In this document: positions 5,768-26,524 of the stretch, in pieces
How the letters are laid out: each line of letters starts with the position of its first letter
Position numbering within the stretch: the first letter of the stretch is position 1
Virus record (IMG/VR): IMGVR_UViG_3300037247_001217
Coordinates: 1-42,752 of that record
Direction: 5' to 3' (one strand)
From: a virus
Length of the DNA: 42,752 nucleotides
Made by a program: the position numbers and the translations under genes
The notes under the pieces: model-generated
The model's input: only the letters and a program-made list of their open reading frames with translations
Told to the model about the DNA's origin: nothing
Database searches by the model: none

Positions 5768-6367
5768 CTACCAGACGAATCCGCCCTGATTCGCCTCCGC
5801 GTCCAGCATCGGGAGCGTCTTCGCGAACCGAGAGACGCTGCTTCCGTCGGTGCTATCTGCTCCCGCCTCGTGGCAGCGACGTATCCGAATGCGCGTATTT
5901 ACCCTAGCTACATGGAAATGACACCCGCGACTCCGCGCAAGTTCGCCCCACGAACGCATGGTGTCGAGCTTCCAGGCTGTCGACCCTCCGAGGAAGATCC
6001 CAATCTCGGGCCCGAGAATCGCCCGGACATCATCGGCGGCCATCCCATCCTGAACCGGAAGAAGAAGCTCGCCCTTCAGCCGTGATGCCCAGGACATCGA
6101 TAGGCGGAGCGACTCGAGGCCACCTCCGACGACATCCGGGAGGGCAATCCAGTCAGCTCCGGCGCCCAGCTTCTCCACGAGACTCTCGAAGGCGGGCACG
6201 TCGAAAGGCTCGCCCTTCTGATATGCAGTCCAGGCGCCGTTATCGATCGCGTATGGGAAGCCCTCAGCGCGATGGACACCCCGAGCTGAGACCAGGAGAC
6301 GCCAACCCGCGGCCCTGAGCACGGCCAGGTTGCGCCGCGTCCCGGTCCTGCTGGCGTACATGATCAC
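5768..6367 (-). CDS. dpdA: DpdA-like DNA 7-deazaguanine transglycosylase
   Basis: From the GTG at 6367, which overlaps the QueD stop as GTGA, the protein has 199 aa. An ATG at 6361 is also possible. It resembles compact phage DpdA proteins, relatives of tRNA-guanine transglycosylase that exchange guanine in DNA for preQ0 or a derivative. Visible elements: IDNGA (41-45), a LPD strand (76-78), LPVQDG (103-108), GGST (127-130), HVARVN (152-157), and GADSTDG (169-175), which carries the likely catalytic aspartate. The neighbours QueD and QueC make the precursor. This matches the known phage module for 7-deazaguanine in DNA, which blocks host restriction. The exact base made cannot be read from sequence. 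Confidence 0.8.
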   Translation of the reverse strand: MIMYASRTGTRRNLAVLRAAGWRLLVSARGVHRAEGFPYAIDNGAWTAYQKGEPFDVPAFESLVEKLGAGADWIALPDVVGGGLESLRLSMSWASRLKGELLLPVQDGMAADDVRAILGPEIGIFLGGSTAWKLDTMRSWGELARSRGCHFHVARVNTRIRIRRCHEAGADSTDGSSVSRFAKTLPMLDAEANQGGFVW

Positions 6368-6729
6368 GGAAACCAGATCGCGTTTGCTCGGGCCGTCTCC
6401 TTGACCTCTACGGAATGCAGGACCACGCGATCGGCAAGCCATTCGAGCCGGTCTATGATCCGTTCGCCGAACCACCGCGCTGCATTTTCGGCGGTGGAGT
6501 TTTCGATCTCATCGTTGATGTTGCGGTGATCGAGCCGGTCGATCAGCGGCTGGACGATTCCGTCGAGCACGTCGTAATCCAGGACCATTCCGTCCACGAG
6601 AGCGTCCGCCTGTAGTGTCACGAGCACACGGTAGCTGTGACCGTGGAGCCGCTTGCATTTGTGATCGTCGGCGACGAGCGGAAGGCTATGCGCGGCCTCG
6701 AACGTGTAGGTCCGCGACACGCGGTACAT
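6364..6729 (-). CDS. queD: QueD, 6-carboxytetrahydropterin synthase
   Basis: 121 aa, the usual length for the family. QueD converts dihydroneopterin triphosphate to 6-carboxy-tetrahydropterin in preQ0 synthesis. Zinc-binding histidines appear in FEAAHSL and in CKRLHGHSY, which also holds the catalytic Cys, and DHRNIND plus EVKET complete the fold. The start at 6729 follows AGGAGG at ideal spacing; an upstream in-frame ATG at 6753 lacks one. It overlaps the QueC end by 44 bases and the DpdA-like start by GTGA. Confidence 0.93.
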   Translation of the reverse strand: MYRVSRTYTFEAAHSLPLVADDHKCKRLHGHSYRVLVTLQADALVDGMVLDYDVLDGIVQPLIDRLDHRNINDEIENSTAENAARWFGERIIDRLEWLADRVVLHSVEVKETARANAIWFP

Positions 6730-7390
6730 GGGGATCCTCCTCTCCGGCTTCATCGAAACCCTTCCGCCTCAGGACGCATGCTGGACACGTTCCGCATGAC
6801 CGAACTTCGTGGATTCGAGGGCCCGTCTTCTGGGGGTCGTAACAGGTCCAAGTGTCGGTGAGCGCTTGCCAGCATTCCGGCCCTAGCTCGCGAGCCAATC
6901 GTACGATCGCGGCCTTCGGGAGCTGGACGAGCGGGGCTTCGATCCGGAAGTGATATTCGAGGCCAATGAGAAGGGCGCGCTCCATCGCTGTGATGAACTT
7001 CGGACGGCAATCGGGGAAGGCCGCATGGTCATCAGCGCCGCAGCCGATGACGACGCGGCCGAGTTCGTGCGCCTTCGCGTAAGCACTGGCGATGGTGAGG
7101 AACATCGCGTTCCGGCCTTCGACGACGACATTCTCAATTGTCACCTCGCCGTCTTTCGATGTGAGCGCTGACCGGAGGCCGAGGCCTTGCGCCCCGAGGG
7201 TTTCGCCCTGAAAGGCATCCACCTTGATCGCTCTGGCCACCCTGCGGGCCGATGTCGCCTCGACCCAATGCCGCTGGTGGTAGTCGATGAAGAGCGCGTG
7301 AAGCGGACGCCCCCATTCCCGGAGCGCGAAGTGAAGACATGTCGTCGAATCCTGGCCTCCGGACAGAAGAACGACGGACCCCGCGTTCAC
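6686..7390 (-). CDS. queC: QueC, 7-cyano-7-deazaguanine synthase
   Basis: 234 aa. QueC makes preQ0 from 7-carboxy-7-deazaguanine using ATP and ammonia. The ATP-pyrophosphatase loop SGGQDSTT is at residues 10-17. The C-terminal zinc site SCGTCPACVLRRKGF has the expected CxxCxxC, with TWTCY before it. The protein is full length. It begins with GTG at 7390, overlapping the stop of the 19-aa micro-ORF (GTGA). In phage, preQ0 from QueC feeds DpdA. No QueE or FolE gene was found in the window, so earlier steps would come from the host. Confidence 0.93.
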   Translation of the reverse strand: MNAGSVVLLSGGQDSTTCLHFALREWGRPLHALFIDYHQRHWVEATSARRVARAIKVDAFQGETLGAQGLGLRSALTSKDGEVTIENVVVEGRNAMFLTIASAYAKAHELGRVVIGCGADDHAAFPDCRPKFITAMERALLIGLEYHFRIEAPLVQLPKAAIVRLARELGPECWQALTDTWTCYDPQKTGPRIHEVRSCGTCPACVLRRKGFDEAGEEDPHVPRVADLHVRGRA

Positions 7391-7446
7391 GAGTCGTCCC
7401 CAAACACGCGTCGCTCCTCTTCCTCGGTGCTTTGGCTACCCATCAT
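7387..7446 (-). CDS. 19-aa micro-ORF copying the RecT C-terminal tail
   Basis: The ORF reads MMGSQSTEEEERRVFGDDS. Its ATG overlaps the stop of the coiled-coil gene (ATGA) and its TGA overlaps the QueC GTG (GTGA), so it sits in the translation relay on both sides. Its last 12 residues equal the last 12 of the RecT protein (9042-9899). At DNA level 40 of 41 bases are the same (7387-7427 and 9042-9082). It could be a free copy of a protein-interaction tail or a relic left by a rearrangement between recT and queC. Confidence 0.5.
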   Translation of the reverse strand: MMGSQSTEEEERRVFGDDS

Positions 7447-8078
7447 GCCTCCTCGGCTCTGAGTGCTTCGCGGGCGGTGCGAAGATGGCCTACTGAGCAT
7501 TCCTCGTCGTGCCCGTCGTCCTCGCTCCACTCGCAGAATACGCATTGGCCCACGTCTTCGACCCATGACAGGGCGCCATCACCAACAGCACACGCTGCGA
7601 GCATGAGGCGGGTGCGGGCCGTGCTACCGCTAGTGTTGAAGCCGTTCTGCCTGTAGAGCGCCGCATTCTCCGCAGCCAGCCGCCGGTTCTCCTCGCGTAG
7701 CTGGTCGCGTTCGGCTTCGAGTTTCAGAAACGCCGCAGCCCAGATGGCGTCCTTCGTCTCCAGCTCACCGATCCGAGCATGGAGACGGACGAGTTTCTCC
7801 GCCTGCATCCGGTCGGCGCGTGCCTTCTCCCCCTGCCATTCGCGTTCTGTTGTTTCGAGTAGGCCCTCCGCCTTGTCGGCGCGGGCTTCGACTTCTTTCC
7901 GTCTCGTGAATGCGTACACGTATTGTCTCGCGAATGCAGCGCGGTCCGCCTCGTGCTCTGCCAGCGCCGCGTCTCGTTCGTCGCTGAGTCTCCGAATCGT
8001 CTCGACGTGCCAATCGTTGTCCGCGGCGAGGCTTTTGATCTCGGCCTCGGCGGCTTCGATGAGATGGCGGTCGTTCAT
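7443..8078 (-). CDS. Coiled-coil protein with C-terminal cysteine cluster
   Basis: 211 aa. Residues about 5-145 are almost continuous charged heptads, predicting a long coiled coil. After TRLMLAACAVG a compact domain carries CVFCEWSEDDGHDEEC followed by VGHLRTAREAL, which could bind one zinc. The same TRLMLAA element and a similar Cys/AREA end occur in the protein at 21381-21755. Function unknown. It overlaps the exonuclease stop (ATGA) and precedes the micro-ORF. A linker or scaffold role at the recombination/replication complex is speculation. Confidence 0.65.
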   Translation of the reverse strand: MNDRHLIEAAEAEIKSLAADNDWHVETIRRLSDERDAALAEHEADRAAFARQYVYAFTRRKEVEARADKAEGLLETTEREWQGEKARADRMQAEKLVRLHARIGELETKDAIWAAAFLKLEAERDQLREENRRLAAENAALYRQNGFNTSGSTARTRLMLAACAVGDGALSWVEDVGQCVFCEWSEDDGHDEECSVGHLRTAREALRAEEA

Positions 8079-8794
8079 GGGCCGTCTCGGACATCGAATG
8101 GAAGCTCACCAGCAAAATCCACCAGCACGGATTGCCGGACCTGCTTCCACCAGACCTTGCGATCGCCGTCCCATCGGAAGCCGGCATCTTTCGCAAGCTG
8201 TCGATCGTTATAGGATACGCAAGCGATCAGCTCTTGCCGGGGCTCCATGGCTCGTTCGTACCAGAGTCGGAGCCCGCCCTCGATCTCGTGAACGCGGGAG
8301 AGCACGGCGGCGAGCGTCAAGCAATCCTCGATCGCGCGGTGAGCTCGGATGATGCCGACGTCATAGGCGAGCGCGATAGCCGTGAGGGACCCGGTCTCGC
8401 CGGGGACGCGTGGCCAGATGGCGTCTTCGTAGGTGCAGAGCCACTGACCCTGAAGTCGCGGGAGCCATCGGCGATCGAACTCAGCGCCGTGGGCCACGGG
8501 AACACACCCGCCGCGCGCGCCTTGGCCACGGCTCATCATCGTTTTCAGAACCGGATGCGGGTCAGCGTCTCCTTCGGAGCTTCGTAGGCCCCACTCCTGG
8601 ACCGCCCGCTCGGGGATGCGATTGATGCTCTCGGCCGCGTTCGCCTCCGCGTGGAGGAGGAACGCCTGGTGGTCAATCGTGATGCCGATCACCGGATCGA
8701 ACAGCACCGCCGCGACCTCGATGAGGTGATCGGTCTCCGGGTCGAGGCCGGTCGTCTCGGTGTCGACGATGAGGAACGCGGGAAGCTCGCTCAT
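8075..8794 (-). CDS. DnaQ-like 3'-5' exonuclease with C-terminal DUF5710-like region
   Basis: 239 aa of the DEDDh exonuclease superfamily. Motif I is DTETTG with Asp11 and Glu13, motif II is the Asp in GAEFDRRW (about residue 104), and motif III is HRAIED with the general-base His near 151. These remove nucleotides from 3' ends. After residue 185, a segment ending in GFRWDGDRKVWWKQV resembles the small domain often called DUF5710, possibly DNA-binding. It is followed and preceded by ATGA overlaps. It probably works with the exonuclease and RecT proteins upstream in the operon. Confidence 0.85.
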   Translation of the reverse strand: MSELPAFLIVDTETTGLDPETDHLIEVAAVLFDPVIGITIDHQAFLLHAEANAAESINRIPERAVQEWGLRSSEGDADPHPVLKTMMSRGQGARGGCVPVAHGAEFDRRWLPRLQGQWLCTYEDAIWPRVPGETGSLTAIALAYDVGIIRAHRAIEDCLTLAAVLSRVHEIEGGLRLWYERAMEPRQELIACVSYNDRQLAKDAGFRWDGDRKVWWKQVRQSVLVDFAGELPFDVRDGP

Positions 8795-9039
8795 GGTTTT
8801 GCTCTCGGTTCGTTCTCATCAGGACCGCCGTGACCCGGGCATGCCAGCCCCGGGACGTATCCGCTGTAGCGACCGTCGAGGCGCAGAACCTCGCCACTGG
8901 ACGCGTTGCGGAAGGTCTCGGATGGCGGCTGCTCGCCGTAGGCCGGCTTATCGCAGAACCCGGCGGGCACCCCATGTCGCCACATCGGGACGGAGCACTT
9001 CCCGTCGCCGTCCGCCAGGGTCTCGTGATGCTGACTCAT
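8791..9039 (-). CDS. Small cysteine-rich protein, probable zinc ribbon
   Basis: 82 aa. It has Cys/His pairs in CSVPMWRHG, GFCDKPAYG and GLACPGHGG, consistent with a metal-binding fold. The latter two blocks look like those in a family of short phage and proteobacterial proteins that I recall but cannot name. ATG 9039 lies three bases after the RecT stop and the TGA overlaps the exonuclease ATG. Function unknown. Confidence 0.7.
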   Translation of the reverse strand: MSQHHETLADGDGKCSVPMWRHGVPAGFCDKPAYGEQPPSETFRNASSGEVLRLDGRYSGYVPGLACPGHGGPDENEPRAKP

Positions 9040-9041
9040 CC

Positions 9042-9899
9042 TCACGAGTCGTCCCCAAACACGCGTCGCTCTTCTTCCTCGGACATCTCGCCGGCGGCCG
9101 GGTCGTGGTCGAGATCGGTCGGGATGTCGATGACCGCCTCGCCGATGTCGAAGGTCTGATCGAGGTTCGCGTCGGCCTGCTCGTCGATGTTGATCGCCGT
9201 GTGGAGCGTCCGCGATTCGGGCGTCTGAGGGACGTATTTCAGCGCGCGCCGAAGCGCCGTCTTCCGCGCCATCATCGGAAAGTCGGTATGCCAGGGCGAG
9301 TCGTTCCGCCCTCCGTCGGCGTACTGGAAAGCGCGAGACCGCCGCATGATGCGCTCGATCTCGTCGCGCCACATCCATTCGATATTGGGGACGGGAGCGT
9401 TCAGCAGCCGGACGACGGCGTAGGCCGCGACGACTTCCGACTCTTCCCGCTTCGGCTGCGGCGAGTGAACGATCTTCGGGTCGGTCCCCATCATCGGGGG
9501 CTCGAAGATGTCGGCGTCTCGAACGTCCCAGGCCTGAACGTTTTGGACGATGCCCGATCGGTACGCGAGCGCGACGAGGCCTTTGTATCCGAAGACCACC
9601 GTCGCGGTCATCGTCCCTTTGACCTTGAACGGAATCAGCCATGCCTGACCGAGATGCGAGCCGATCTCGAGGCCACAATGGGAGACCTGTAAGAACCCCC
9701 CGATCAGGCTCGCCGACGAACACTGAAGCAGCTTAGGAACGCGCTGGATCTCAGTCGCGAAGATGCGAGCGAGGCGCGTCCCGTCGACCATCTTCGGGAG
9801 AGCGCGCTGAATCTGGTCGAGGTTCGCATTCAGCCACTTTTCGACGCTCTCGCCTCCCGCACCGACGCGGATGATCTGACCCTTCGGATTGACTGCCAT
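9042..9899 (-). CDS. recT: RecT single-strand annealing protein
   Basis: 285 aa. It resembles RecT/Redbeta-family recombinases, which anneal complementary single strands exposed by a partner exonuclease. The diagnostic core is at residues about 55-115: a CSSASLIGGFLQ stretch, then LEIGSHLGQAWLIPF, then VFGYKGLVALAYRSG. The partner, a YqaJ-type nuclease, is encoded next to it, sharing one base (TGATG). The acidic tail EEEERRVFGDDS is repeated in the micro-ORF at 7387. Acidic C-terminal tails in annealing and single-strand-binding proteins often bind partners, and I infer that here. A GTG one codon upstream is also a possible start. Confidence 0.9.
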   Translation of the reverse strand: MAVNPKGQIIRVGAGGESVEKWLNANLDQIQRALPKMVDGTRLARIFATEIQRVPKLLQCSSASLIGGFLQVSHCGLEIGSHLGQAWLIPFKVKGTMTATVVFGYKGLVALAYRSGIVQNVQAWDVRDADIFEPPMMGTDPKIVHSPQPKREESEVVAAYAVVRLLNAPVPNIEWMWRDEIERIMRRSRAFQYADGGRNDSPWHTDFPMMARKTALRRALKYVPQTPESRTLHTAINIDEQADANLDQTFDIGEAVIDIPTDLDHDPAAGEMSEEEERRVFGDDS

Positions 9900-10978
9900 C
9901 ACTTCACCTTCCTGATGTGGGAGGTCGTTCGCGCCTCCGTCCCCTTCACGCTCACGTCGAGGCCTTCGAGAGCCTTCGCCGCGGCCATGACCCCGACGCT
10001 TTCATCGATGACGATCTCGCGTAGGCGCGCCCCGAGAGTATCGAGCCGATCGCCGATGACGACCATCGGCAACGCTCCCTGATTCTTGACGACGAGCTTC
10101 GCTCTCGTGTTCCGCGTGATGACCTTCCAGGCGCCGACGTTTTCGCCAGGTAGGTTCCCGCGCTCTGCGTTGCCCATCATCAGACGGATCTTCTGCTTCA
10201 GTTCCTTCTCTCGCTTCTCGAGGGCCTTCCGCTGGCCAGCCAGCTCGGCGATCTCCTCGGTCATCAGGAAGGCATCGATCCCGAGCTCGACCGTCTTCCC
10301 CGCGGTCGCGGCAACGTCGACGGACCGATCGTCCTCCTCGCTCCCGTCGGGATCGGGTGGGTCCCCGTCCTGGACGCGCTTCCAGAACGCCTCACCCCGT
10401 TCGATGAGCTGGCCGATCCGTTCCTCGTCGCGGTCGACCCAGATGAAGAGCGGGGGGGCGCCGAAGAGCGTCACGCCGACGAGGGACTTCGGCGCGTCGG
10501 TGACCAGCATCTGATGCTGAACCTGGGCGTCGACATGATCCGGGATGCCATCTGCCCAGAGCTCGGCGATCACCGGGGAGCGCGTCGTCTTCACCTCGAA
10601 GGGGAAATCGCCGGCAAGGCGTTCAACGGGTTTCATCGGTCGAACCCACCCATCGAGTGTCACGCCCGCCCACGGATGCCGCGTCGAGCGAAGCAGGACG
10701 TTCTCGGGGTGAGCGTCGAGCTTCAGGCGCCGCCTCAGGTTCCGAATGATCGATTCCTGCTGGTCGGTCCCCCAGTCGAGCGTCTCCCGATTGTTCAGCG
10801 CATCGACGTCGTCCTGGGTCGGCGCGCCCTTCCGCATCCGGATGTAGCTCGACAGGAGCGAGCCGTACCGGTGGACGCCGAGGAGCTGGGGCGCGACCGT
10901 CCCGGTGACGAGCTTCCGCCGTTCGGCGAGCCACTCGGGATCGGTGTCGCGGCAGACGATCTCGAAAGCGGCGCTCAC
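9899..10978 (-). CDS. YqaJ-type (lambda-exo-like) recombination nuclease
   Basis: 359 aa. The N-terminal 200 residues show the YqaJ/lambda-exonuclease pattern: EWLAERRKLVTGTVAPQLLG near the start, ATLDG-type VTLDGW about residue 106, FEVKTT (about 126-131) with the metal ligands, and HVDAQVQHQML (about 146-156). The enzyme should resect 5' ends to feed RecT. The C-terminal third is a helical extension with repeats of Lys/Glu. Neighbour relations: ATGA overlap with the helical protein upstream, TGATG with RecT downstream. It acts in recombination-dependent replication. Confidence 0.85.
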   Translation of the reverse strand: MSAAFEIVCRDTDPEWLAERRKLVTGTVAPQLLGVHRYGSLLSSYIRMRKGAPTQDDVDALNNRETLDWGTDQQESIIRNLRRRLKLDAHPENVLLRSTRHPWAGVTLDGWVRPMKPVERLAGDFPFEVKTTRSPVIAELWADGIPDHVDAQVQHQMLVTDAPKSLVGVTLFGAPPLFIWVDRDEERIGQLIERGEAFWKRVQDGDPPDPDGSEEDDRSVDVAATAGKTVELGIDAFLMTEEIAELAGQRKALEKREKELKQKIRLMMGNAERGNLPGENVGAWKVITRNTRAKLVVKNQGALPMVVIGDRLDTLGARLREIVIDESVGVMAAAKALEGLDVSVKGTEARTTSHIRKVK

Positions 10979-12112: not shown

Positions 12113-12456
12113 CTTCCAGCCCTCAGGCTTTGGAGACGATCGGTCAGATCTTCAAGCAACACCGAGAGGCCGCCTGGGTTTGAGTTCAGGCCCTTCGGTT
12201 CCGTGTATGGCGTGATCACATCGACGAACTGGTCGATGATGGTCCGCCAAAGGCGGAGCTCGCTCAGCGCAGAGCGGAGATCTTCGCTTCGGACTACGAC
12301 GAATCCGCCCATGGAACAGGCCGATTCGAGACGTTTCTGTTCGGCGCATCGCTCGCAGACGTCCCCCTCCGGGGTGCTGTGGTCGGGACGCGCGATGCGG
12401 CGCCCGCAATAGATGCACGCCTCCGGCTCATCGGCTTCTGTCCATTCGTCTGTCAT
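12109..12456 (-). CDS. Zinc-ribbon protein
   Basis: 115 aa. CIYCGRRI near residue 14 and CERC near 34 form a classical CxxC...CxxC zinc ribbon. The rest is helical with a Leu-rich segment (RSALSELRLWRTIIDQF). Zinc ribbons of this size often bind DNA or regulatory partners in phage early operons, which is the inference here. ATGA overlaps link it to the methyltransferase upstream and the gene downstream. Confidence 0.7.
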   Translation of the reverse strand: MTDEWTEADEPEACIYCGRRIARPDHSTPEGDVCERCAEQKRLESACSMGGFVVVRSEDLRSALSELRLWRTIIDQFVDVITPYTEPKGLNSNPGGLSVLLEDLTDRLQSLRAGR

Positions 12457-13187
12457 CGGAACGCCTCGACGATTGCGTGACCGATGACCTCAGCCACCTG
12501 AGGGACTACGGCGTTTCCGAGGGCTCGATATCGGTCCAACCCGGGGGGAAACCCATCAGGACCTCTGTCAGCAACACCGGCAGGTACCGCTCGAAGTCGT
12601 CCGCGTAGTGTTCGGGTAACATCGAACGCGTCGGGCGAGCTCGGCGCACCTTCGCAAGAGATGCAATCGAGTATTCCCCGACTCTCTTCGCGTCGGAAGC
12701 CAGGGGCGTAGGCCACCGCAAACAACCGCTCCCGGAGATGAGGGAGACCAACATCCGACGCGCGAAGCACCGCCCATTCCGCATCGAACCCGCACGCGGC
12801 CAGGTCTCCGATGACGCCGGCGAAGCCCATGGAAAGGAGCCTTGGAACGTTTTCCAGGACAACGAGGCGTGGTCGTAACTCGCGAATGACTCGCGCGTAT
12901 TCTTGCCAAAGACCGGAGCGGTCGTCGGCCATGCCCTCGCGGTGGCCGGCATCACTGAACCCCTGACAGGGGAATCCCCCGCAGATGAGGTCGACGGGGG
13001 CGAGCTCTCCGGCTCCGACTGTTCGGACATCTTCGAACCTCTCAGCATGGGGCCAATGTTCCGACAGCACGGAACGACAGAACCTGTCGTTTTCTACTTG
13101 CCAGAGCACGGGGCCGAGGCCTGCTCGTTCGAGGCCGAGTTCGAGACCGCCGATTCCCGCGAAGAGGCTCCCGATCGTCAAAGACAT
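12453..13187 (-). CDS. dcm: C5-cytosine DNA methyltransferase (Dcm-like)
   Basis: 244 aa from ATG 13187 (a GTG at 13196 is also in frame). It methylates cytosine C5 in DNA with SAM. Motifs: I, GSLFAGIGGLELGL; IV, GGFPCQGFSDAG with the catalytic Cys; VI, LENVPRLL; VIII, RERLFAVAY; IX-X, RALGNAVVPQVAEVIG. The target-recognition region is short and the protein is shorter than the usual 300-400 aa, which is common in phage enzymes. No cognate restriction enzyme is nearby, so it probably protects phage DNA. The 5' end overlaps the zinc-ribbon microprotein gene. Confidence 0.93.
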   Translation of the reverse strand: MSLTIGSLFAGIGGLELGLERAGLGPVLWQVENDRFCRSVLSEHWPHAERFEDVRTVGAGELAPVDLICGGFPCQGFSDAGHREGMADDRSGLWQEYARVIRELRPRLVVLENVPRLLSMGFAGVIGDLAACGFDAEWAVLRASDVGLPHLRERLFAVAYAPGFRREESRGILDCISCEGAPSSPDAFDVTRTLRGRLRAVPAGVADRGPDGFPPGLDRYRALGNAVVPQVAEVIGHAIVEAFR

Positions 13188-15283: not shown

Positions 15284-15498
15284 TGCCGGCCTGTCGATCA
15301 TGCGGCGCCTGGCTCCAGTTCGTGAAGACCGAGAAGGGGAAGACCATGCCCGTCGAGAAGCAGTTCGGAGGAAACCTCCTCATCAGGGCTGACCTCCTCG
15401 GTGAAGACGTCGTTCAGCACGTCGGCGACGGGAAGGGGACGCACGTCTCGCATTTCGCGAATTGCCCGGACGCCGCAAAGTGGCGGGGCGGGTCGTGA
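15283..15498 (+). CDS. Small zinc-binding protein, unknown function
   Basis: 71 aa, starting at the ATG that shares a base with the loader stop. MPACRSCGAWLQFVKTEKGKTMPVEKQ, split here as a CxxC near the start, then GK and MPVE, is a pattern I have seen in small phage proteins; the end has HVSHFANCP, giving further His/Cys. Likely one zinc site. GTGA links it to the methyltransferase gene. Confidence 0.65.
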   Translation: MPACRSCGAWLQFVKTEKGKTMPVEKQFGGNLLIRADLLGEDVVQHVGDGKGTHVSHFANCPDAAKWRGGS

Positions 15499-16772
15499 TC
15501 CGAATCATCACCGGCGATTGCCTCGAAGCGATGGGCGAGCTCGACGCGGCAAGCGTGGACGCCATCGCGACGGACCCTCCGTACGGCCTCGGTTTCATGG
15601 GCCGCGCGTGGGATGCCGGTGTTCCTGGTGCGCCGTTCTGGGAAGCGGCCCTACGCGTCGCAAAGCCCGGTTCCCATCTCGTCGCATTCGGGGGAACGCG
15701 GAAGTTTCACCGGCTCGCGTGTGTGATCGAGGATGCCGGGTGGGAACTCCGCGATTGCCTGTCATGGCTTTACGGGTCGGGCTTCCCCAAGTCGCACAAC
15801 ATCGCGATCGCGATCGATAAACAGGCGGAAGCGATGGACCATCGCGGCAAAGCGATCCGAATGGTCACGCAGGCACCGGAAGAGCAAAATGATCTTGAGG
15901 CTCCCGATCCTCCGCCGGACCACGCGCCGATCACGGACTCGGCCAAAGCATGGAAGGGATGGGGGACGGCACTCAAGCCCGCATGGGAGCCGATCATCCT
16001 GGCCCGAAAGCCGCTCACCGGAACCGTCGCGGAGAACGTCCTCGAACACGGGACGGGGGCGGTGAATGTGGATGGCTGTCGGGTCGGAACCGGAAAGGAT
16101 GTCCCGGCCTCGGTGTCGAGCCGCGGCATGCAGGCCAAGCGTGCAAGCGTCTATGGGACCTATGGGATTGAGACGGGATCAGAATCGGGGCACGATCCCA
16201 ACGTCGGCCGCTGGCCCGCCAACCTGATCCTCGGCTGCGCATGCGAGGGCGAGCACGATCCGGGGTGCGCGGTGGCGATGGTGGACGAGGCGAGTGGGAA
16301 AGGTGTCAGTCGACGAGGGGGCCCGAGGAAGAGCGCCGGCCCCGGGGCAGGCTACGGCATGGCCCACACCGGCGCAGAATACGATGATGCCGGCGGCGCC
16401 TCCCGTTTCTTCTACACGGCGAAGGCGAGCCGCGCAGAGCGAGAGGCGGGTCTCTTCGGCGCGAGCTCGGTCGTGAACGACGGGCGCGAGACCTCGATCG
16501 ACAACCCGTACCAGCGGGGCGATACCCTCCGGCGGAACACCCATCCGACCGTGAAGCCGATCGCGCTCATGCAGTGGCTTGTCCGCCTCATCACGCCACC
16601 GGGCGGGACCGTCCTCGATCCGTTCTGCGGATCGGGCTCGACGCTGATCGCTGCCGACCGCGAAGGCCTCGACGCCATCGGCATCGAGATCAATCCCGGC
16701 TACGCCGCGATTGCGCGCGACCGGGCCAAAGGCGACTGTCCGCTATTCGCGGACGTGAAAACGGAAGGGTGA
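15495..16772 (+). CDS. DNA methyltransferase, DPPY type (N6-A or N4-C)
   Basis: 425 aa from the GTG that overlaps the previous TGA. ATDPPYGLGFMG (DPPY, residues 27-30) precedes DPFCGSGST (about 375-383), the SAM-binding motif, so the order is that of the beta class, with the target-recognition region in between (about 100-330). HPTVKPIALMQWLV just before motif I also fits. Substrate could be adenine N6 or cytosine N4; DPPY is compatible with both. No restriction enzyme is adjacent. It probably protects phage DNA, together with the C5-cytosine enzyme and the 7-deazaguanine module. Confidence 0.9.
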   Translation: MIRIITGDCLEAMGELDAASVDAIATDPPYGLGFMGRAWDAGVPGAPFWEAALRVAKPGSHLVAFGGTRKFHRLACVIEDAGWELRDCLSWLYGSGFPKSHNIAIAIDKQAEAMDHRGKAIRMVTQAPEEQNDLEAPDPPPDHAPITDSAKAWKGWGTALKPAWEPIILARKPLTGTVAENVLEHGTGAVNVDGCRVGTGKDVPASVSSRGMQAKRASVYGTYGIETGSESGHDPNVGRWPANLILGCACEGEHDPGCAVAMVDEASGKGVSRRGGPRKSAGPGAGYGMAHTGAEYDDAGGASRFFYTAKASRAEREAGLFGASSVVNDGRETSIDNPYQRGDTLRRNTHPTVKPIALMQWLVRLITPPGGTVLDPFCGSGSTLIAADREGLDAIGIEINPGYAAIARDRAKGDCPLFADVKTEG

Positions 16773-17082: not shown

Positions 17083-17873
17083 CCGCTGACGCCCGATTTG
17101 TCGTGACGGGGACGCCGATCCCGTATGCCCGCGCGCGGACGGTGGCGCTCCCGAACGGATCGACGCGGTACTTCACTGACAAGCGGTCGAAGAAGTATCG
17201 CCAGCGTGTCGCGGGGGCAGCTCACAACGCGGCGCGCTGGGTTCGGGAGGGCGCGAAGCTCGTCCGCCGGTCGCCGCCGTGGGCTGATGAATCGAAGTGC
17301 CGGAAGGTCATGGCGAGGGCGACGCGGCGGCGCGGACAGAAGCTCCCGGCCTGCGAATGCCCATGGTGCTCCACCGAGTACCGTCTGAAGCTGAACATCA
17401 TCCTTCCGAACAAGCGGACGCGCGACCTCGACAACATCGAGAAGAACATCCTCGACGCATGCACCGGGGTGCTGTGGTGGGATGACCGTCAGGCATTCGT
17501 CGAGTCGAAGGAACGGTCATTCTCGAAGGCGAATCCGCGCATCGAGATCGAGGTTCGAATCGTCATCCATCAGACGGAACTCGGTCTCTCGGAGGAGGAA
17601 AACCCATTCCCCGGCGAGGGATGGGAGACGATGCGTGCGAGGGAATGGCTGAACTGGGCGGCCCTCCACTCCGCCGACGAACGAACCCACGAAGAGGTCG
17701 CAGGGAATCTCGCCGCGCTCCTCCGCGACTGCTGGGCCTCAGGATTCCTCGAGGGAATGGATCAGGGAGATCTGACCGAACCCCCGCCCGAACCGCAGCC
17801 CGGCGACGCGGCCCGACTCGACCAGCGCATGTTTCGCCCGTCCCACCTGAAGCTCGTCCCGCCGGAAAACTGA
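17079..17873 (+). CDS. rusA: RusA-like Holliday-junction resolvase
   Basis: 264 aa. The start VVTGTPIPYARARTV and, near residue 116, DLDNIEKNILDACTGVLWWDD match the RusA family, where Asp residues in DxDN and the later WDD bind metal. It should cut four-way junctions made by RecT-type recombination and replication. A CECPWC loop near 93-97 is an insertion and may bind zinc, and the C-terminal 90 residues are an extra region that ends in a charged tail. Overlaps the micro-ORF upstream and shares one base with the next gene. Confidence 0.85.
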   Translation: MTADARFVVTGTPIPYARARTVALPNGSTRYFTDKRSKKYRQRVAGAAHNAARWVREGAKLVRRSPPWADESKCRKVMARATRRRGQKLPACECPWCSTEYRLKLNIILPNKRTRDLDNIEKNILDACTGVLWWDDRQAFVESKERSFSKANPRIEIEVRIVIHQTELGLSEEENPFPGEGWETMRAREWLNWAALHSADERTHEEVAGNLAALLRDCWASGFLEGMDQGDLTEPPPEPQPGDAARLDQRMFRPSHLKLVPPEN

Positions 17874-18109
17874 TGGAAGGTATGGACGACATCACGCGGG
17901 CGATCATTGGTCACGTCGACGTGCGGTCGCGGTTTCGTCGCCTGGTCGCTGCGAAAGGCCAGGACGAGGCGTTTCGCATCCTCGAGGCCGCTCTCCGAGA
18001 CGGTTTCGGCGGACTCGCCGGCCGGAAGGTGAAAGACATTCGGGTCGATGAGATCCGCGACATCGTCCTCGATGCGCTCCACGAGGCCGCGAAGGGAGGG
18101 GCGAACTGA
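17873..18109 (+). CDS. Small helical protein, unknown function
   Basis: 78 aa. ATG 17873 shares a base with the resolvase stop; ATG 17882 with GGAAGG before it is an alternative. RFRRLVAAKGQDEAFRILEAAL and EIRDIVLDALHEAA are amphipathic helices. No motif recognised. TGATG joins it to the next gene. Confidence 0.55.
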   Translation: MEGMDDITRAIIGHVDVRSRFRRLVAAKGQDEAFRILEAALRDGFGGLAGRKVKDIRVDEIRDIVLDALHEAAKGGAN

Positions 18110-18336
18110 TGGGACTCGCCGAACGATTCGTTCTCCGCCTCCGAGCTGGCCGCACCGAGGTCGCGATCATTCCGCGCGACGAAGGCGCCCTCTTCCACCC
18201 CGGTCCCATGGGGAAGGCCCAAGTCCGCGAACGCTGGAAGGCCGATGCGATCGAGATCATCGCCCAGGCGCTCGATGATCCGGAGATCCGCGCCGCATTC
18301 CGCGACAAGGGGCTTCAGCTGGTGGTGGTGAAGTGA
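18109..18336 (+). CDS. Small protein, unknown function
   Basis: 75 aa, basic start (MGLAERFVLRLRAGRTEVAI) then a helical ERWKADAIEIIAQALDD. Probably soluble. Operon position (resolvase, DNA metabolism) is the only clue. Confidence 0.5.
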   Translation: MGLAERFVLRLRAGRTEVAIIPRDEGALFHPGPMGKAQVRERWKADAIEIIAQALDDPEIRAAFRDKGLQLVVVK

Positions 18337-18566
18337 CCGACGACGATGATCGCATTCCGAAGACCTATGCCGGTGAGCTTCGCGCGATGGGCCTCGGCAT
18401 CCCTGAGGGCATTCCCGATTGCGCCTGGGTTCCAGCGGCATCGATTCAGTGGGTGATGGATGGGATCCCAGAATCTCAGCCTGATGGCCGATTCACCATC
18501 CAAGCCAGCGCTACATTCACCGAAGCGTTTCAGTGGGTTCGGGTGAGCGGTACCATTGAGCCATGA
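18333..18566 (+). CDS. Small protein, unknown function
   Basis: 77 aa from a GTG that overlaps the previous TGA (GTGA). GIPEGIPDCAWVPAASI followed by QWVMDGIPE looks like a pattern shared by small phage proteins of unknown role. Its stop overlaps the next ATG. Confidence 0.5.
   Translation: MTDDDDRIPKTYAGELRAMGLGIPEGIPDCAWVPAASIQWVMDGIPESQPDGRFTIQASATFTEAFQWVRVSGTIEP
18551..18556 (+). promoter_or_regulatory. TACCAT -10 box, leaderless promoter candidate
   Basis: TACCAT is followed by six bases and ATG 18563. It lies at the end of the previous gene. No clear -35 (TTTCAG 17 bases upstream is weak). Confidence 0.35.
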
Positions 18567-18799
18567 TCCCCGCCCAGCTCGCCACCGACGACCCGCTCCA
18601 GATGATTCGGTGCAACCCCTACCGAGCCTGGCTCTCCAAGCGCGCATGCGGCCTTCGCTTCAAGCTCTCGAAGAGACTCCGCCGGAATCCGAGAAAGGGC
18701 CCCCAGAAGACCAGCCGGACCGAGGTGGCGCGATCATGCGGGCTCTGCATCGGCTGCCCCGCCGGGAAGGAAAACCGCCCTCATGGCCGGACGCCGTAA
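18563..18799 (+). CDS. Small cysteine-rich protein, possible zinc finger
   Basis: 78 aa. A Cys near residue 17 (IRCNPYRAWL), one near 29 (ACGLRF) and CGLCIGC near 59 can form a zinc site; the start and the NPYRAWLSKRACGLR pattern recall small phage transcription factors. The middle is very basic. Regulation of late genes is a guess. Confidence 0.6.
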   Translation: MIPAQLATDDPLQMIRCNPYRAWLSKRACGLRFKLSKRLRRNPRKGPQKTSRTEVARSCGLCIGCPAGKENRPHGRTP

Positions 18800-18953
18800 A
18801 ATCACCATCATCATTCTCGACGAGGCCGGGAATCCGCGCGACCTCGGGATCGAGGCGCCCCGGTGCCAGGTTTGCGGCGAGCCATTCACCGTTCTCGATG
18901 CCAAGCGAGGGCCGGTCAGCCACGCATGCAAGGATCCCCATGGCCGGACGTAG
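18783..18953 (+). CDS. Small zinc-finger-like protein
   Basis: 56 aa. CQVCGEPF and VSHAC give three Cys and a His. MAGRRKITIIILDEAG is a beta-rich N-terminus. Overlaps both neighbours (18563-18799 and 18940-19503). Function unknown; it precedes the candidate small terminase. Confidence 0.55.
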   Translation: MAGRRKITIIILDEAGNPRDLGIEAPRCQVCGEPFTVLDAKRGPVSHACKDPHGRT

Positions 18954-19503
18954 CAAGCCCTGGGACCGACAGGAGAAGGAGACCGAACCGGCCTTCCACG
19001 CCTTCGTCGTCTACCGTGACATGGGCGCTGAACGCAGTCTGACCGCCGCCGCCATCGAAGCTGGGTACTCACGTCAGCAGATGGCCGACTTCTCGCGAAA
19101 ATACGACTGGGTCGCGCGGGTACGCGCCTGGGTACGAAGACAGGATCAGGCGAAGACGCGGTCGGAGCTCGGCGAGATCGAGAAGATGCATCGGCGACAT
19201 GTGCGGCTTGCGCTTCAGCTCCAGGACGTGACCGCGCTCGATCTCGAGAGGCTCATCGCGCGGAAGGAACGTGAGATCGAACGAGACGAGGACGGCAACA
19301 TCGCATCGGCGAACGAGCTCGCGAAGGTGGCGGAACGCGCGGTGAGAATCGAACGACTGGCGAGAGGCGAGGTCACTGAGCGCGTGGAGACGACCTGGGA
19401 CCTGTCGCGGCTCAGCGTGAAGGACCTCCGCGAGCTGAAGAGATTGCGGGCCCTGATGGGCTCAGAAGGGGAAACCGATGGAGGAGACGAAGACGAAGCC
19501 TGA
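18940..19503 (+). CDS. terS: Candidate small terminase subunit (HTH)
   Basis: 187 aa. FVVYRDMGAERSLTAAAIEAGYSRQQMADFSRKYDWVARVRAW is an HTH-type region (given here as a description: residues about 20-60) similar to phage small terminase N-terminal domains. A charged helix follows (about 90-150). The large terminase starts 2.3 kb downstream after several small genes, so the link is by family pattern and by order. GAT precedes ATG 18940; an upstream frame is longer but poor. Other HTH proteins could look the same. Confidence 0.55.
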   Translation: MAGRSKPWDRQEKETEPAFHAFVVYRDMGAERSLTAAAIEAGYSRQQMADFSRKYDWVARVRAWVRRQDQAKTRSELGEIEKMHRRHVRLALQLQDVTALDLERLIARKEREIERDEDGNIASANELAKVAERAVRIERLARGEVTERVETTWDLSRLSVKDLRELKRLRALMGSEGETDGGDEDEA

Positions 19504-19711
19504 TCCGATAGTCCATCTCAGGGCCCGAACGAAGATCACGATCGAACATGGGCGCGACGGCTTCACCGCGGAGTTCGAGACGGCCGGCCGCAGCGTCCTG
19601 GTTCGCGGCGTGAACGCACACGAGGCGCTCTCGAAGGCGGGCCAGATCATCGACGACTTGGCGCACGTGATCCGCACGTACATGGAGGACGCGGCTCATG
19701 GCGAAACGTAG
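19478..19711 (+). CDS. Small protein, unknown function
   Basis: 77 aa. Starts inside the end of the previous gene with GGGGA upstream. Mixed alpha/beta, acidic; ends in MEDAAHGET. Its end overlaps the next ATG. No family recognised. Confidence 0.5.
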   Translation: MEETKTKPDPIVHLRARTKITIEHGRDGFTAEFETAGRSVLVRGVNAHEALSKAGQIIDDLAHVIRTYMEDAAHGET

Positions 19712-19862
19712 GAGCGCCCGCCACTCGCTCGGGAAGGTCGAGCGTCACAAGGTCGAGAAGTGGCTCGCGCGAAAGCTGAAACAGTCGCTCTACAGCGGTC
19801 GCGTCGAAGCAGCCGCGGCGCTGGCTGAAATGCTGTGCGTGTTTCAGGAGAAGGAAGAATGA
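19698..19862 (+). CDS. Small basic helical protein
   Basis: 54 aa. Start MAKRRSARHSLGKVERHKVEKWLARK is strongly basic (shown for character only), then an Ala-rich helix. Could bind nucleic acid. Its TGA overlaps the next ATG. Confidence 0.5.
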   Translation: MAKRRSARHSLGKVERHKVEKWLARKLKQSLYSGRVEAAAALAEMLCVFQEKEE

Positions 19863-20014
19863 TCGCCCCGATGAACGAGGAGCGCTCCCCCTGGTGGGAC
19901 CTCGCGATCGCCATCGTCCCCGCGCTGGTCGCCGCGGCTGCGATCGTCGTCCCGTGGGCTATCGACAGGCGCGAGCGGAAGCAATCGTCGGAGGGGAAGG
20001 ACGATGACGCCTGA
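19859..20014 (+). CDS. Small single-pass membrane protein
   Basis: 51 aa. One membrane helix, WDLAIAIVPALVAAAAIVVPW (about residues 14-34), then a basic tail. ATGA links it to the previous gene. Adjacent to another membrane gene, it may act in the envelope during infection. Function unknown. Confidence 0.5.
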   Translation: MIAPMNEERSPWWDLAIAIVPALVAAAAIVVPWAIDRRERKQSSEGKDDDA

Positions 20015-20309
20015 GGAAGTGGTCGCACGCCGGGTCGCTGAGTTCGGGGGCGCGGTTCTCGGCGCTTGCATCCTTGCGGCCGTAACGGACTGGCAGGGTG
20101 CGGTGATCGGGGCGGCCATCTGTGGGGTGCTCCAATGCCGGTGGCTTCTCGCGATCGATGCGCTCGGAGGTGACGCGGCCAGATATCAAAAGGACCAGGA
20201 GTTCTGGTCCAAGCGCCATCCGGCATGGGAGCAACGGTCGATTGCCTGGACGACCGGGATCGGCGCTCTGGCCCTCATCACCTTGGCCGCATTGCTGGGA
20301 AACCGATGA
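20004..20309 (+). CDS. Small membrane protein
   Basis: 101 aa, with three hydrophobic segments at about 15-28, 31-50 and 80-98. GGAGGGGAAG precedes ATG 20004. ATGA links it to the next gene. It could form a pair with the membrane protein just upstream. No family recognised. Confidence 0.5.
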   Translation: MTPEEVVARRVAEFGGAVLGACILAAVTDWQGAVIGAAICGVLQCRWLLAIDALGGDAARYQKDQEFWSKRHPAWEQRSIAWTTGIGALALITLAALLGNR

Positions 20310-20515
20310 CCCGCCGATACGACGTCGAAGAGGTGACCGTCATCACGTCCCGCCATCTGGCTCAGGGCGAGATCGCCCGGTGCGTGGTAGCCTGCATCCG
20401 CAAGCCTGAGGCCTTCGAAGGGGTCGACGGTCTTCTCGACGCGCAGCTCGCGAGACACTTCCTCGAGGTCGCGAACGGGATACTGAACAGAGAGGAATCA
20501 GATGAACCAGAATGA
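20306..20515 (+). CDS. Small protein, unknown function
   Basis: 69 aa. ATG 20306 overlaps the previous stop. VITSRHLAQGEIARCVVACI then helical. No motif recognised. The next ORF starts before its end. Confidence 0.5.
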   Translation: MTRRYDVEEVTVITSRHLAQGEIARCVVACIRKPEAFEGVDGLLDAQLARHFLEVANGILNREESDEPE

Positions 20516-20624
20516 TGAACGCGACCCGCGCGGCTACGACGGGAGCATTCGAGTCGGACGGCTTCTCGACGCCCTCTCGTCATCGAGTGCAGGGGTCACG
20601 GGGATCAATTCGAGGCCGAGATGA
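20502..20624 (+). CDS. Microprotein (40 aa)
   Basis: GAGAGGAA precedes ATG 20502 at good spacing, and its TGA overlaps the ATG of the next gene (ATGA). Sequence is polar with a short helical VGRLLDALSS. It is supported by ribosome site and coupling, not by any family. Function unknown. Confidence 0.4.
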   Translation: MNQNDERDPRGYDGSIRVGRLLDALSSSSAGVTGINSRPR

Positions 20625-20815
20625 ATCGCCGCGCGGATTGGTTGAAGCTCGGAAACAAAGCCAGGAAAGACCGAGATCGCTATGCCGAGACCCTCGTCTT
20701 CGTCCGCCAAACCATCCATCAGGCTCATCACGAGGGCCCCATCGAGGCGTGCCCCAAGAACACGTGCGACGCTATCGCCCAGGCGCTCGGAGAGCGCGTC
20801 CAGAGGACAGCATGA
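20621..20815 (+). CDS. Small protein, unknown function
   Basis: 64 aa. Basic start (MNRRADWLKLGNKARKDRDR), later ACPKNTCDAIAQALG with two Cys. ATGA overlaps on both sides. A nucleic-acid role is possible. Confidence 0.5.
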   Translation: MNRRADWLKLGNKARKDRDRYAETLVFVRQTIHQAHHEGPIEACPKNTCDAIAQALGERVQRTA

Positions 20816-21381
20816 ATCAGAAGAACGGAAAGTCCGCAGCCCCGCCCCAGACCCCCTTCCAGGCGCTCGCTCAGATGATCCTGGGCCTCGGCGCCGCGAG
20901 GACGAAGCAGGAAGCCATGGCCCGCCTCGCGGCCTGTCAGAAGCTCCTCCATGGCATCGAGCAAGCGTTCGGGATCCAGTCTCAGAAGATGGGGCACCTC
21001 CAGAACGTTCTCCTCGCGATGACCGAGGGGGAGTTCCGCCACCTGTCGCTGAACATCGAGGGCGACGTCGAGGGCTACGTCTTCACCGATTCGGAGGGGA
21101 AGCCCGTCTGGGTTGTGGATGCGAGCCGCGGGATGGTTCTCATCACGCCCGAGCACGTCGAGCCGATCGTCGTCACCGTGAAGATGAAGGACGGGACGGA
21201 GAAGAAGATCGAGATCAACCACCTCGGGAATGAGGAGGAGGGCGCGGAACCGCCAGCAGATCACGAACGGCTCCGGGTTCCGGTGGGCGAGGTGGCGACC
21301 AGCGGACCGATCGAAACCGACCCGGCCGGCCTTCCCGCCGACTTGGATGGGGCAAACCAGGCTGACGAGGAGACAGGCTGA
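20812..21381 (+). CDS. Protein of unknown function before the terminase
   Basis: 189 aa from the ATG that overlaps the previous stop. Residues 15-70 are helical (ALAQMILGLGAART); then FRHLSLNIEGDVEGYVFTDSEGKPVWVVDASRGMV, a beta-rich central domain (shown as 85-115), and an acidic C-terminus. Its last base is shared with the next ATG. A role in packaging or head assembly is possible by position only. Confidence 0.5.
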   Translation: MNQKNGKSAAPPQTPFQALAQMILGLGAARTKQEAMARLAACQKLLHGIEQAFGIQSQKMGHLQNVLLAMTEGEFRHLSLNIEGDVEGYVFTDSEGKPVWVVDASRGMVLITPEHVEPIVVTVKMKDGTEKKIEINHLGNEEEGAEPPADHERLRVPVGEVATSGPIETDPAGLPADLDGANQADEETG

Positions 21382-21755
21382 TGAACGTATGCAGCATCCA
21401 CAACCTGCTGAAGCCGTGCTCCGTTTGTGCTGAAGGCGAGTTGCGCGATACCCGGGACGAGCTCGAAAGCGCACGAGACGCGGCGCGCGTAGAGGAGACG
21501 TTGCGGATGGAAGCCGAGGCCGAGCGGGATCGGCTCGCGGCCGAAAGCGCGGGCGTCATCTCGGGGCGCTGCGACGAATGCGCGCCCATCATCCCCGAAG
21601 CCCTCGAACCCCGCACCCGCCTCATGCTCGCGGCATACGCACTGCTGCCCCATGCCCTCGACTGCGATAGATGTGAGACAGGGGTCGGGTGCGTCGTCTT
21701 TGAGCGGCTGCGAGGTGAGGCCCGCACCGCCCGCGAAGAGGTCGTGACAGACTAG
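21381..21755 (+). CDS. Coiled-coil protein with cysteine clusters
   Basis: 124 aa. CSIHNLLKPCSVC at the start, a coiled coil (about 20-55), CDEC, then TRLMLAAYALL and CDRCETGVGC near the end. The TRLMLAA element with a following Cys cluster is shared with the protein at 7443-8078, including a stretch of about 20 bases. Probably zinc-binding, function unknown. Confidence 0.55.
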   Translation: MNVCSIHNLLKPCSVCAEGELRDTRDELESARDAARVEETLRMEAEAERDRLAAESAGVISGRCDECAPIIPEALEPRTRLMLAAYALLPHALDCDRCETGVGCVVFERLRGEARTAREEVVTD

Positions 21756-21759
21756 CGGA

Positions 21760-23349
21760 ATGGACGCCGCCACGGGCCGCCCGGTCGAGCTCCCCAGCGA
21801 TGCAGAGATCGATCTCCGGATCGTCGAGAAGGGCGGGCTTCACGGATTCACCGAAGTCGCCTGGCCTCAGGTCCAGAAGGCAGCCCCATTCCTCGACAAT
21901 TGGCACGTCGGCGAGATCTGCGCGCACCTCGAGGCTGTCAGCGCGGGCGAGTTCCGGAACCTGATCATCAACATCCCGCCCGGGTGTTCGAAGTCCACGA
22001 CCGTCGCGGTTCTCTGGCCGGCCTGGGAGTGGGCCGAGGTCGACCCGGCGCGTCAGTACATCTTCGGGACCTACTCCTCGACGCTCTCTCGGCGCGACGC
22101 GATCAGGCACCGAAATCTCGTCGGCTCGAAGTGGTTTCGCCGTCGATGGCCCGGGGTGTCCATCCCGTATCAGAACACGCGATCGGCGACGAATTTCCAG
22201 AACAACAAAGGCGGGCGACGGATCTCTACCTCGGTCAAGGGCGGGATCATCGGCGAGCACGGCAATACGATCGTGGTCGATGATCCGCTGAGGCCTCTCG
22301 ACGGCGAAGGGCGGCGCGCCGTTCTCGGGACCGAGCTCGATGGTTGTATCGACTGGTGGGGCGGAACGCTCTCGACGCGTCAGGCCAACCCGAGGACGAC
22401 GCGTCGCGTGATCATCATGCAACGGCTGAACGTGCGAGATCTCGCCGGCCATGTCCTCGAGGAAGAGGGCGAAGAGGAGTGGGTTCACCTCCGCCTTCCG
22501 ATGGAGTTCGAGAGCCGCTACCCGTGCGTCACGCGGCCGATCCGGAAGCGATACCTCGAGGACGACGCCACCGAGGATGACCCAACGCCGCGCTTCGAGA
22601 TCGGCGGTGATCCGCGCACCGAGGAAGGCGAGCTCATCTGGCCGGAGCACTACGACCGGAAAGCCGTCGACACGCTGAAGCGCCGGCTCGGGCCTCGAGG
22701 AACAGCGGCCCAGCTCCAGCAGCGACCGAGCGCTCTTGAGGGGGCGATCTTCAAGGCCTACTGGATCCAATATTGGGGGTATCCCGGCTCCCGCTACGCC
22801 GAGCTCCCCGAGCGCCTGAGGCTGATTCAGTCCTGGGACATGACGTTCAAGGGCAAGCCGACCGGGGGCCAGAAGCGCTCGTGGGTCTGCGGTCAGGTAT
22901 GGGGCGCCCGCGGCGCGGACATGTTCCTTCTCGACCAGGAGCGCGGCCAGTGGGAGCTCGTCGAACAGCTTCAGGCGCTGGCCCGGCTCACGCGGCGCTG
23001 GCCGAAGGCTCACCGCAAGCTCATCGAGGATGCTGCGAACGGGGCCGCCGTCGTCTCAGCTGCGAAGAGAAAGGTCGCTGGCCTGAAGCTCGTCCCCACT
23101 GGCGGCGGGAGCGAGGCGCGCGCCCAGGCGGCGGCGACGTTCTTCGAGGGCCCCGAGGAGTTCGAACCCGGGAACGTCTGGCTCCCCCATCCGACGATCG
23201 CGCCCTGGGTTCCCGACTACGTCGCGGAGCTCCTCGCGTTCCCGAACGGCGCGAACGACGACCAGGTCGACTCCACGACTCACGCCGTCGTATACCTGGG
23301 CGGCGGCGCGGCTAGACTGTATTCCGAAGCGATGGCGAATCTGGGGTGA
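21760..23349 (+). CDS. terL: Large terminase subunit
   Basis: 529 aa. The packaging ATPase/nuclease. Walker A IPPGCSKST (72-80), Walker B TIVVDD (170-175), a probable motif III STRQANPRTTRRV (about 205), and C-terminal RNase H-like nuclease with SWDMTF (first acid, about 354), IEDAANG (about 428), and NGANDDQVDS near the end (metal-binding Asp). Packaging type (cos, pac) cannot be read from the sequence alone. The gene follows a run of small genes by 4 bases and precedes the portal by 4 bases. Confidence 0.92.
   Translation: MDAATGRPVELPSDAEIDLRIVEKGGLHGFTEVAWPQVQKAAPFLDNWHVGEICAHLEAVSAGEFRNLIINIPPGCSKSTTVAVLWPAWEWAEVDPARQYIFGTYSSTLSRRDAIRHRNLVGSKWFRRRWPGVSIPYQNTRSATNFQNNKGGRRISTSVKGGIIGEHGNTIVVDDPLRPLDGEGRRAVLGTELDGCIDWWGGTLSTRQANPRTTRRVIIMQRLNVRDLAGHVLEEEGEEEWVHLRLPMEFESRYPCVTRPIRKRYLEDDATEDDPTPRFEIGGDPRTEEGELIWPEHYDRKAVDTLKRRLGPRGTAAQLQQRPSALEGAIFKAYWIQYWGYPGSRYAELPERLRLIQSWDMTFKGKPTGGQKRSWVCGQVWGARGADMFLLDQERGQWELVEQLQALARLTRRWPKAHRKLIEDAANGAAVVSAAKRKVAGLKLVPTGGGSEARAQAAATFFEGPEEFEPGNVWLPHPTIAPWVPDYVAELLAFPNGANDDQVDSTTHAVVYLGGGAARLYSEAMANLG
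23313..23318 (+). promoter_or_regulatory. TAGACT -10-like box before portal gene
   Basis: TAGACT lies 35 bases upstream of the portal ATG, inside the end of the terminase gene. A start site near 23325 would leave a short leader. No -35 is clear. Confidence 0.3.
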
Positions 23350-23353
23350 GCTG

Positions 23354-26438: not shown

Positions 26439-26441
26439 GCT
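26436..26441 (+). promoter_or_regulatory. TAGGCT -10-like box downstream of the MuF-like gene
   Basis: TAGGCT overlaps the end of the MuF-like stop. It would start transcription just before the 14-codon ORF and the hairpin at 26474-26510. No -35 is clear. Confidence 0.35.
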
Positions 26442-26470
26442 TGGCTCGACGCCTCCTCCACGGTCTCGGG

Positions 26471-26515
26471 ATGGGCGCCCCGGTCGGCTGGCGTCACTGG
26501 CCGGGGCGCCGCTAA
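26471..26515 (+). CDS. 14-codon ORF inside a hairpin, possible leader peptide
   Basis: MGAPVGWRHWPGRR, ending at a TAA that overlaps the next -10 box. Most of it is encoded by the hairpin 26474-26510. Two Trp codons and a His codon recall leader peptides that sense translation, but this may be chance from a GC-rich hairpin. Confidence 0.2.
   Translation: MGAPVGWRHWPGRR
26474..26510 (+). terminator. Strong GC hairpin between MuF-like and protease genes
   Basis: GGCGCCCCGGTC (26474-26485) pairs with GGCCGGGGCGCC (26499-26510) with one mismatch; loop of 13 bases. Long GC stem without a T-run. It could end transcription from the portal operon before the leaderless protease promoter. Confidence 0.6.
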
Positions 26516-26518
26516 GGT
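26513..26518 (+). promoter_or_regulatory. TAAGGT -10 box, leaderless promoter candidate
   Basis: TAAGGT, six bases, then GTG 26525. It follows the hairpin directly, giving a terminator-promoter arrangement. No clear -35. Confidence 0.5.
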
Positions 26519-26524
26519 GAACCC

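Follow-up and report, generated by a model that had tools for sequence, protein, structure and literature searches.

Why should the C-terminal tail of a phage RecT protein be encoded a second time, in a free-standing micro-open reading frame (micro-ORF) directly ahead of queC? The question arises in IMG/VR virus record IMGVR_UViG_3300037247_001217, analysed over its full length (positions 1 to 42,752, hereafter the window), a 42.75-kb phage contig that closes with 127-bp terminal repeats. Its minus strand carries recT (9042-9899), whose product, a single-strand annealing protein, ends in EEEERRVFGDDS, and further downstream a 19-codon micro-ORF (7387-7446) encoding MMGSQSTEEEERRVFGDDS. The original prediction, made from the letters alone, was that this separate acidic-tail peptide could act as a decoy for RecT partners, with a rearrangement scar between recT and queC as the alternative. 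Our analysis makes it probable that the shared sequence, a 41-bp repeat, is instead a duplicated gene junction left by the gain or exchange of a block of genes at the recT 3' end; the peptide would be incidental, and the micro-ORF would serve as a bridge to queC.

Read from 7446 to 7387 on the minus strand, the micro-ORF runs ATGATGGGTAGCCAAAGCACC...GACTCGTGA and consists of seven codons of other origin (MMGSQST) followed, in frame, by the 12-codon recT tail. Its ATG overlaps the stop codon of the preceding gene, p211, as ATGA (7446-7443), and its own stop overlaps the queC start as GTGA (7390-7387). Position, sequence and both joints were exactly as first described, and sequence comparison confirmed the likeness of the two ends, which match at 40 of 41 bases and stop abruptly at unrelated flanks on both sides. 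The repeat comprises the last 12 codons of recT, its TGA stop and the GTG that overlaps it, the likely source of the duplication being the last 39 nt of recT. In the copy at the end of recT (9042-9082, minus strand), this GTG (9045-9043) is in frame with the following gene, p83 (GTG AGG ATG AGT); the second copy (7387-7427, minus strand) ends 1 nt past the GTG start of queC. Terminal repeat aside, the uninterrupted 30-bp core is the longest exact repeat of the genome, whereas the longest repeat in 60 Markov simulations averaged 17.7 bp and reached at most 23 bp. No further copy was found in the window with up to 3 mismatches allowed, and none appeared in 100 shuffles. The sole mismatch is synonymous (GAG/GAA), and 11 of the 12 codons plus the stop are identical, a match expected with p ~6e-6 if, under this codon usage, each tail had acquired its codons independently; the repeat is therefore a recent DNA duplication.

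Between the two copies lies a 1.6-kb block of three genes: p83, encoding a small protein (8791-9039, with the GTG at 9045 as an alternative start), a DnaQ-like 3'-5' exonuclease gene (8075-8794; PF00929 1.5e-9, PHROG 192 2.9e-20) and p211, whose 211-aa product has a coiled coil and a Cys-rich C-terminal part (7443-8078). For p211 we found no Pfam or NCBIfam match and just a weak PHROG of unknown function. The block coincides with a step in codon usage. GC content at third codon positions (GC3) and codon adaptation index (CAI) were 0.82-0.85 and 0.67-0.70 for recT and its upstream neighbour yqaJ, as against 0.72-0.77 and 0.51-0.64 for the six genes behind recT; more broadly, the block and the queC-queD-dpdA genes had a GC3 of 0.72-0.77, compared with 0.80-0.85 in recT, yqaJ and the structural genes. 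When a single deletion between the copies was made in silico, the RecT protein was unchanged and queC came to overlap the recT stop. The block contains neither a transposase nor bounding inverted repeats, and we rejected a transposable element with target-site duplication. A programmed frameshift from p211 into the tail was also rejected, as the last 60 codons contain no X XXY YYZ slippery site.

Similar repeats recur in other phages. We scanned 80 IMG/VR loci with relatives of the dpdA-like gene (41-68% identity), which gave 68 usable non-redundant clusters; the dpdA query is by design common to all the loci. Direct repeats of 16 bp or longer bracketed dpdA in 10 of the 68 clusters, where equal intervals in the same loci predicted 2.3. 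Six repeats, from four loci, had a Shine-Dalgarno sequence and a start codon in register in both copies, where essentially none was expected, and all six lay in the direction of dpdA and ended 0-6 nt past the start codon. A criterion independent of dpdA (a repeat of at least 18 bp with an in-register start codon within its last 11 nt), applied to 30 contigs totalling 1.16 Mb, returned 8 pairs against 0.06 expected, and all 8, the window's repeat included, lay within ~3 kb of dpdA. The 30-contig set included contigs already seen to carry repeats, so that the rate near dpdA rests on the 68-cluster counts, while the absence of pairs elsewhere is unbiased. Direct repeats at gene boundaries are thus present beyond chance. 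Far more frequently than chance would allow, dpdA in these loci (L022-L101) has flanking direct repeats of 16-50 bp, which often stop on a start codon or shortly beyond it; their positions include 2251/3136 in L027, 5333/6590 in L038, 5505/6606/8537 in L046, 5972/6625 in L096 and 5762/6808/7335 in L101. In L038, where the gene order is yqaJ, recT, one gene, queC and dpdA, the longest non-palindromic repeat (18 bp, TCGGAGGGCGGCATGCGT) stands at the junction before queC and recurs where dpdA ends, and both upstream genes thereby finish in GGRHA. A 24-bp repeat in L096 leaves dpdA and the preceding gene with an identical tail, PEWRQEG, and both genes have an ATGA overlap.

The geometry of the second copy bears on how queC is translated. 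Homology of QueC begins ~4 codons past the GTG, which is itself supplied by the repeat, and other phage QueC proteins begin 2-6 codons ahead of the first conserved motif. queC has no strong Shine-Dalgarno sequence of its own. Translation of the micro-ORF, as the original prediction proposed, is plausible, with AGGAGG sitting only 1-4 nt ahead of its two ATGs. The p211 stop and the queC start are separated by 52 nt, which the micro-ORF spans with 4-nt overlaps at both ends; stop/start overlaps of -4 or -1 nt are one mark of a coupled pair, and such overlaps were found at both 7446-7443 and 7390-7387. Reinitiation all but disappears once the spacing reaches ~20 nt, and it needs no more of the upstream gene than the final 15 nt (PMC10666635); the duplicated end of recT would thus be enough to carry a working coupling junction. 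On the minus strand (7351-7450), the recT-tail part can fold back onto the opening codons of queC, forming a long predicted hairpin whose loop holds the queC start.

From the junction geometry, the DNA-level copy, the codon-usage step and the recurrence, we infer the following order of events and enzymology. The p83-exonuclease-p211 block would have been gained or exchanged between recT and queC, leaving one copy of the junction at each. Short-homology or illegitimate recombination may have duplicated the junction, a kind of exchange that RecT-family proteins favour. The micro-ORF would have arisen from a 7-codon leader of other origin just behind p211, joined to the recT tail, and would now act in cis, keeping queC, queD and dpdA translationally coupled. 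The minimal pairing segment of Red-beta is 23-27 bp (PMC3945230), and RecET can join homologies of 5-13 bp (PMC2327257). The 30-bp core exceeds the Red-beta minimum and should permit Red/RecT-type annealing; a 1,655-bp unit would then be lost without damage to recT or queC. Within this scheme recT is likely the source of the duplicated sequence, judging from its closest relative, a RecT 67% identical encoded on IMGVR_UViG_3300023199_000205 (G003), with the tail LSAEEEERMARELAERESRS: this RecT shares the S-EEEER of the tail and its gene keeps the TCGTGA stop/start overlap, but a different gene follows in this single relative.

Several observations weigh against a duplicated junction of this kind. 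We found no relative with an empty recT-queC junction and no other contig with the present one, and the order of events is for that reason not proven. The window's repeats flank p83, the exonuclease gene and p211 instead of dpdA, the gene flanked in most other loci. In addition, the Shine-Dalgarno sequence within the repeat is weak (GGGG), and the hairpin predicted around the start of queC is no better than in shuffled sequences (z -1.07).

The strongest competitor is a pure scar, in which illegitimate recombination produced the duplication, queC initiates alone and the micro-ORF does nothing. Phages commonly have mosaic borders at gene boundaries (PMC3233612), chance alone gives one frame match in three, and the RNA structure around queC is ordinary. 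A rearrangement scar between recT and queC, the alternative already named in the original prediction, is in itself supported. We nevertheless consider a scar without any role unlikely, given the exact 4-nt overlaps at both ends of the micro-ORF, the recurrence of repeats ending in a start codon in other phages and the lack of a strong Shine-Dalgarno sequence belonging to queC.

That the free tail is a functional peptide, a decoy or modulator that binds a RecT partner such as the YqaJ nuclease, appears very improbable. The frame is open, overlaps its neighbours as ATGA and GTGA and lies inside the recT operon. However, the identity is at the DNA level, and the single synonymous difference in so recent a copy means that selection on the peptide cannot be shown. 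The closest RecT retains only the S-EEEER part, VFGDDS being absent from its tail, and no micro-ORF of this kind occurs on its contig; with this one relative available, we did not find the peptide conserved over diverged DNA. When 2.9 million IMG/VR viral contigs were searched with a degenerate form of EERRVFGDD, two unrelated AT-rich matches only and no related contig came back. The solved RecT structure 7ub2 matches residues 70-251 only, placing the tail outside the matched fold. The decoy idea is further weakened by the duplicated junctions of other phages, which copy quite different tails (GGRHA in L038, PEWRQEG in L096). In wider searches, relatives sought via RecT, QueC, the exonuclease and p211 yielded one close RecT relative, with no tblastn-confirmed relatives for the other three; the relative's contig has no detectable p83, exonuclease, p211, queC, queD or dpdA; the exact repeat core had no match in genome contigs; and GenBank phages gave no DNA-level match to the region. 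Once read as a duplicated junction, the apparent micropeptide is ordinary.

We attach as little credence to a regulatory repeat, in which the 41 bp would be retained twice for binding or for initiation, in the manner of the Start-Associated Sequences (SAS) of cluster K. A start codon does stand behind both copies, and L101 has a multi-copy start-associated repeat; yet the window holds only two copies even when 3 mismatches are allowed, and they consist mostly of recT coding sequence. The SAS/ESAS of cluster K mycobacteriophages follow a 13-bp consensus upstream of many starts and share with the present case their place at translation starts of non-structural genes (PMC3203893), whereas the window has two 41-bp copies that run through the start codon into upstream coding sequence, and not a short consensus before many starts. 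Finally, although a 41-bp repeat in a metagenomic contig, while shorter than a read, can be mis-joined, an assembly artefact is the least credible explanation of all, since a single base distinguishes the copies, their flanks are unique, the terminal repeat closes the contig, and 9,995 bp of an independent contig match at 99.99%, though elsewhere in the genome.

The surrounding minus-strand operon reads yqaJ, recT, p83, the DnaQ-like exonuclease gene, p211, the micro-ORF, queC, queD and a dpdA-like gene, with stop and start codons overlapping at nearly every joint. yqaJ (9899-10978) encodes a YqaJ/RecE-type exonuclease, the upstream partner of RecT (PF09588 1.2e-16, PHROG 434 7.6e-51), and recT itself matches Pfam RecT at 1.7e-31 and PHROG 148 at 9.5e-55. 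queC (6686-7390) encodes a 7-cyano-7-deazaguanine synthase (TIGR00364 1.7e-45, above cut-off); queD (6364-6729) matches PF01242 at 1.9e-26 and TIGR03367 at 3.7e-22, the latter below its cut-off. The dpdA-like gene (5768-6361), coding for a DNA guanine transglycosylase-like protein, was identified through a tblastn match (E 2e-8) with phage proteins annotated as DpdA-like; a PDB sequence search gave no match for it. Together these genes (5768-7390) form a predicted DNA 7-deazaguanine modification module. Neither queE nor folE was noticed in the vicinity, and the corresponding steps may therefore fall to the host. The window has two more DNA methyltransferase-like genes (12453-13187 and 15498-16772), one of them a Dcm-like cytosine methyltransferase gene (TIGR00675) with the lowest codon adaptation among the genes measured, the other judged by eye only; several layers of DNA modification may thus be stacked in one phage.

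Two further observations concern the window. The independent contig, IMGVR_UViG_3300043256_000423 (L007/L017), covers positions 17789-27783, so that the phage recurs in another assembly. Separately, an inverted 24/25-bp match links 7594-7618, within p211, to 21610-21634, within a 124-aa gene before the terminase. Both genes encode RTRLMLAA followed by a Cys-rich part and probably have a domain in common; we rejected the match as another copy of the junction and attributed it to such a domain together with codon bias.

Boundary sequences, PeSL cassettes and start-associated sequences are already known. Like the borders of phage mosaic modules and their conserved boundary sequences, a system of homologous or relaxed recombination through Red/RecT-type annealing proteins, the window has a short repeat exactly at a gene boundary, with differing genes behind recT, together with a phage-encoded annealing protein and a homology above the Red-beta minimum; unlike them, it has its boundary sequence twice in a single genome, and that sequence is mostly coding and takes in the stop/start overlap of coupled genes. 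A second phage with this very boundary was not found. PeSLs (Arbiol 2010, Comeau 2014) are reportedly promoter-terminator elements that flank accessory genes and were proposed to mediate their shuffling. The likeness lies in repeated expression signals flanking accessory genes, and the difference in that the window's repeat is a translational stop/start junction and not a promoter-terminator. They are cited in PMC4503421 as mobile regulatory cassettes of T4-type phages. Termination-reinitiation coupling (PMC10666635, PMC6728339) resembles our case in the -4 nt ATGA and GTGA overlaps on either side of the micro-ORF, and differs in that the bridge here is a chimeric 19-codon ORF and not a conserved gene. 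A duplicated stop/start coupling junction bordering accessory cassettes beside dpdA appears to be a variant of these systems, for which we found no description in the literature searched.

Tentatively, recombination at duplicated coupling junctions might allow phages that have short-homology annealing proteins to take up, or cleanly lose, accessory cassettes, especially 7-deazaguanine DNA-modification genes such as queC and dpdA, with shared tails of neighbouring genes and micro-ORFs as the footprint. If the junction reading is true, the micropeptide is such a recombination footprint, and shared tails of adjacent phage genes would be no sign of shared partners. Recombination at a coupling junction would preserve the upstream stop and the downstream start on both gain and loss, and the wider pattern would offer a testable route by which anti-restriction genes enter tightly overlapping phage operons with translation unbroken.

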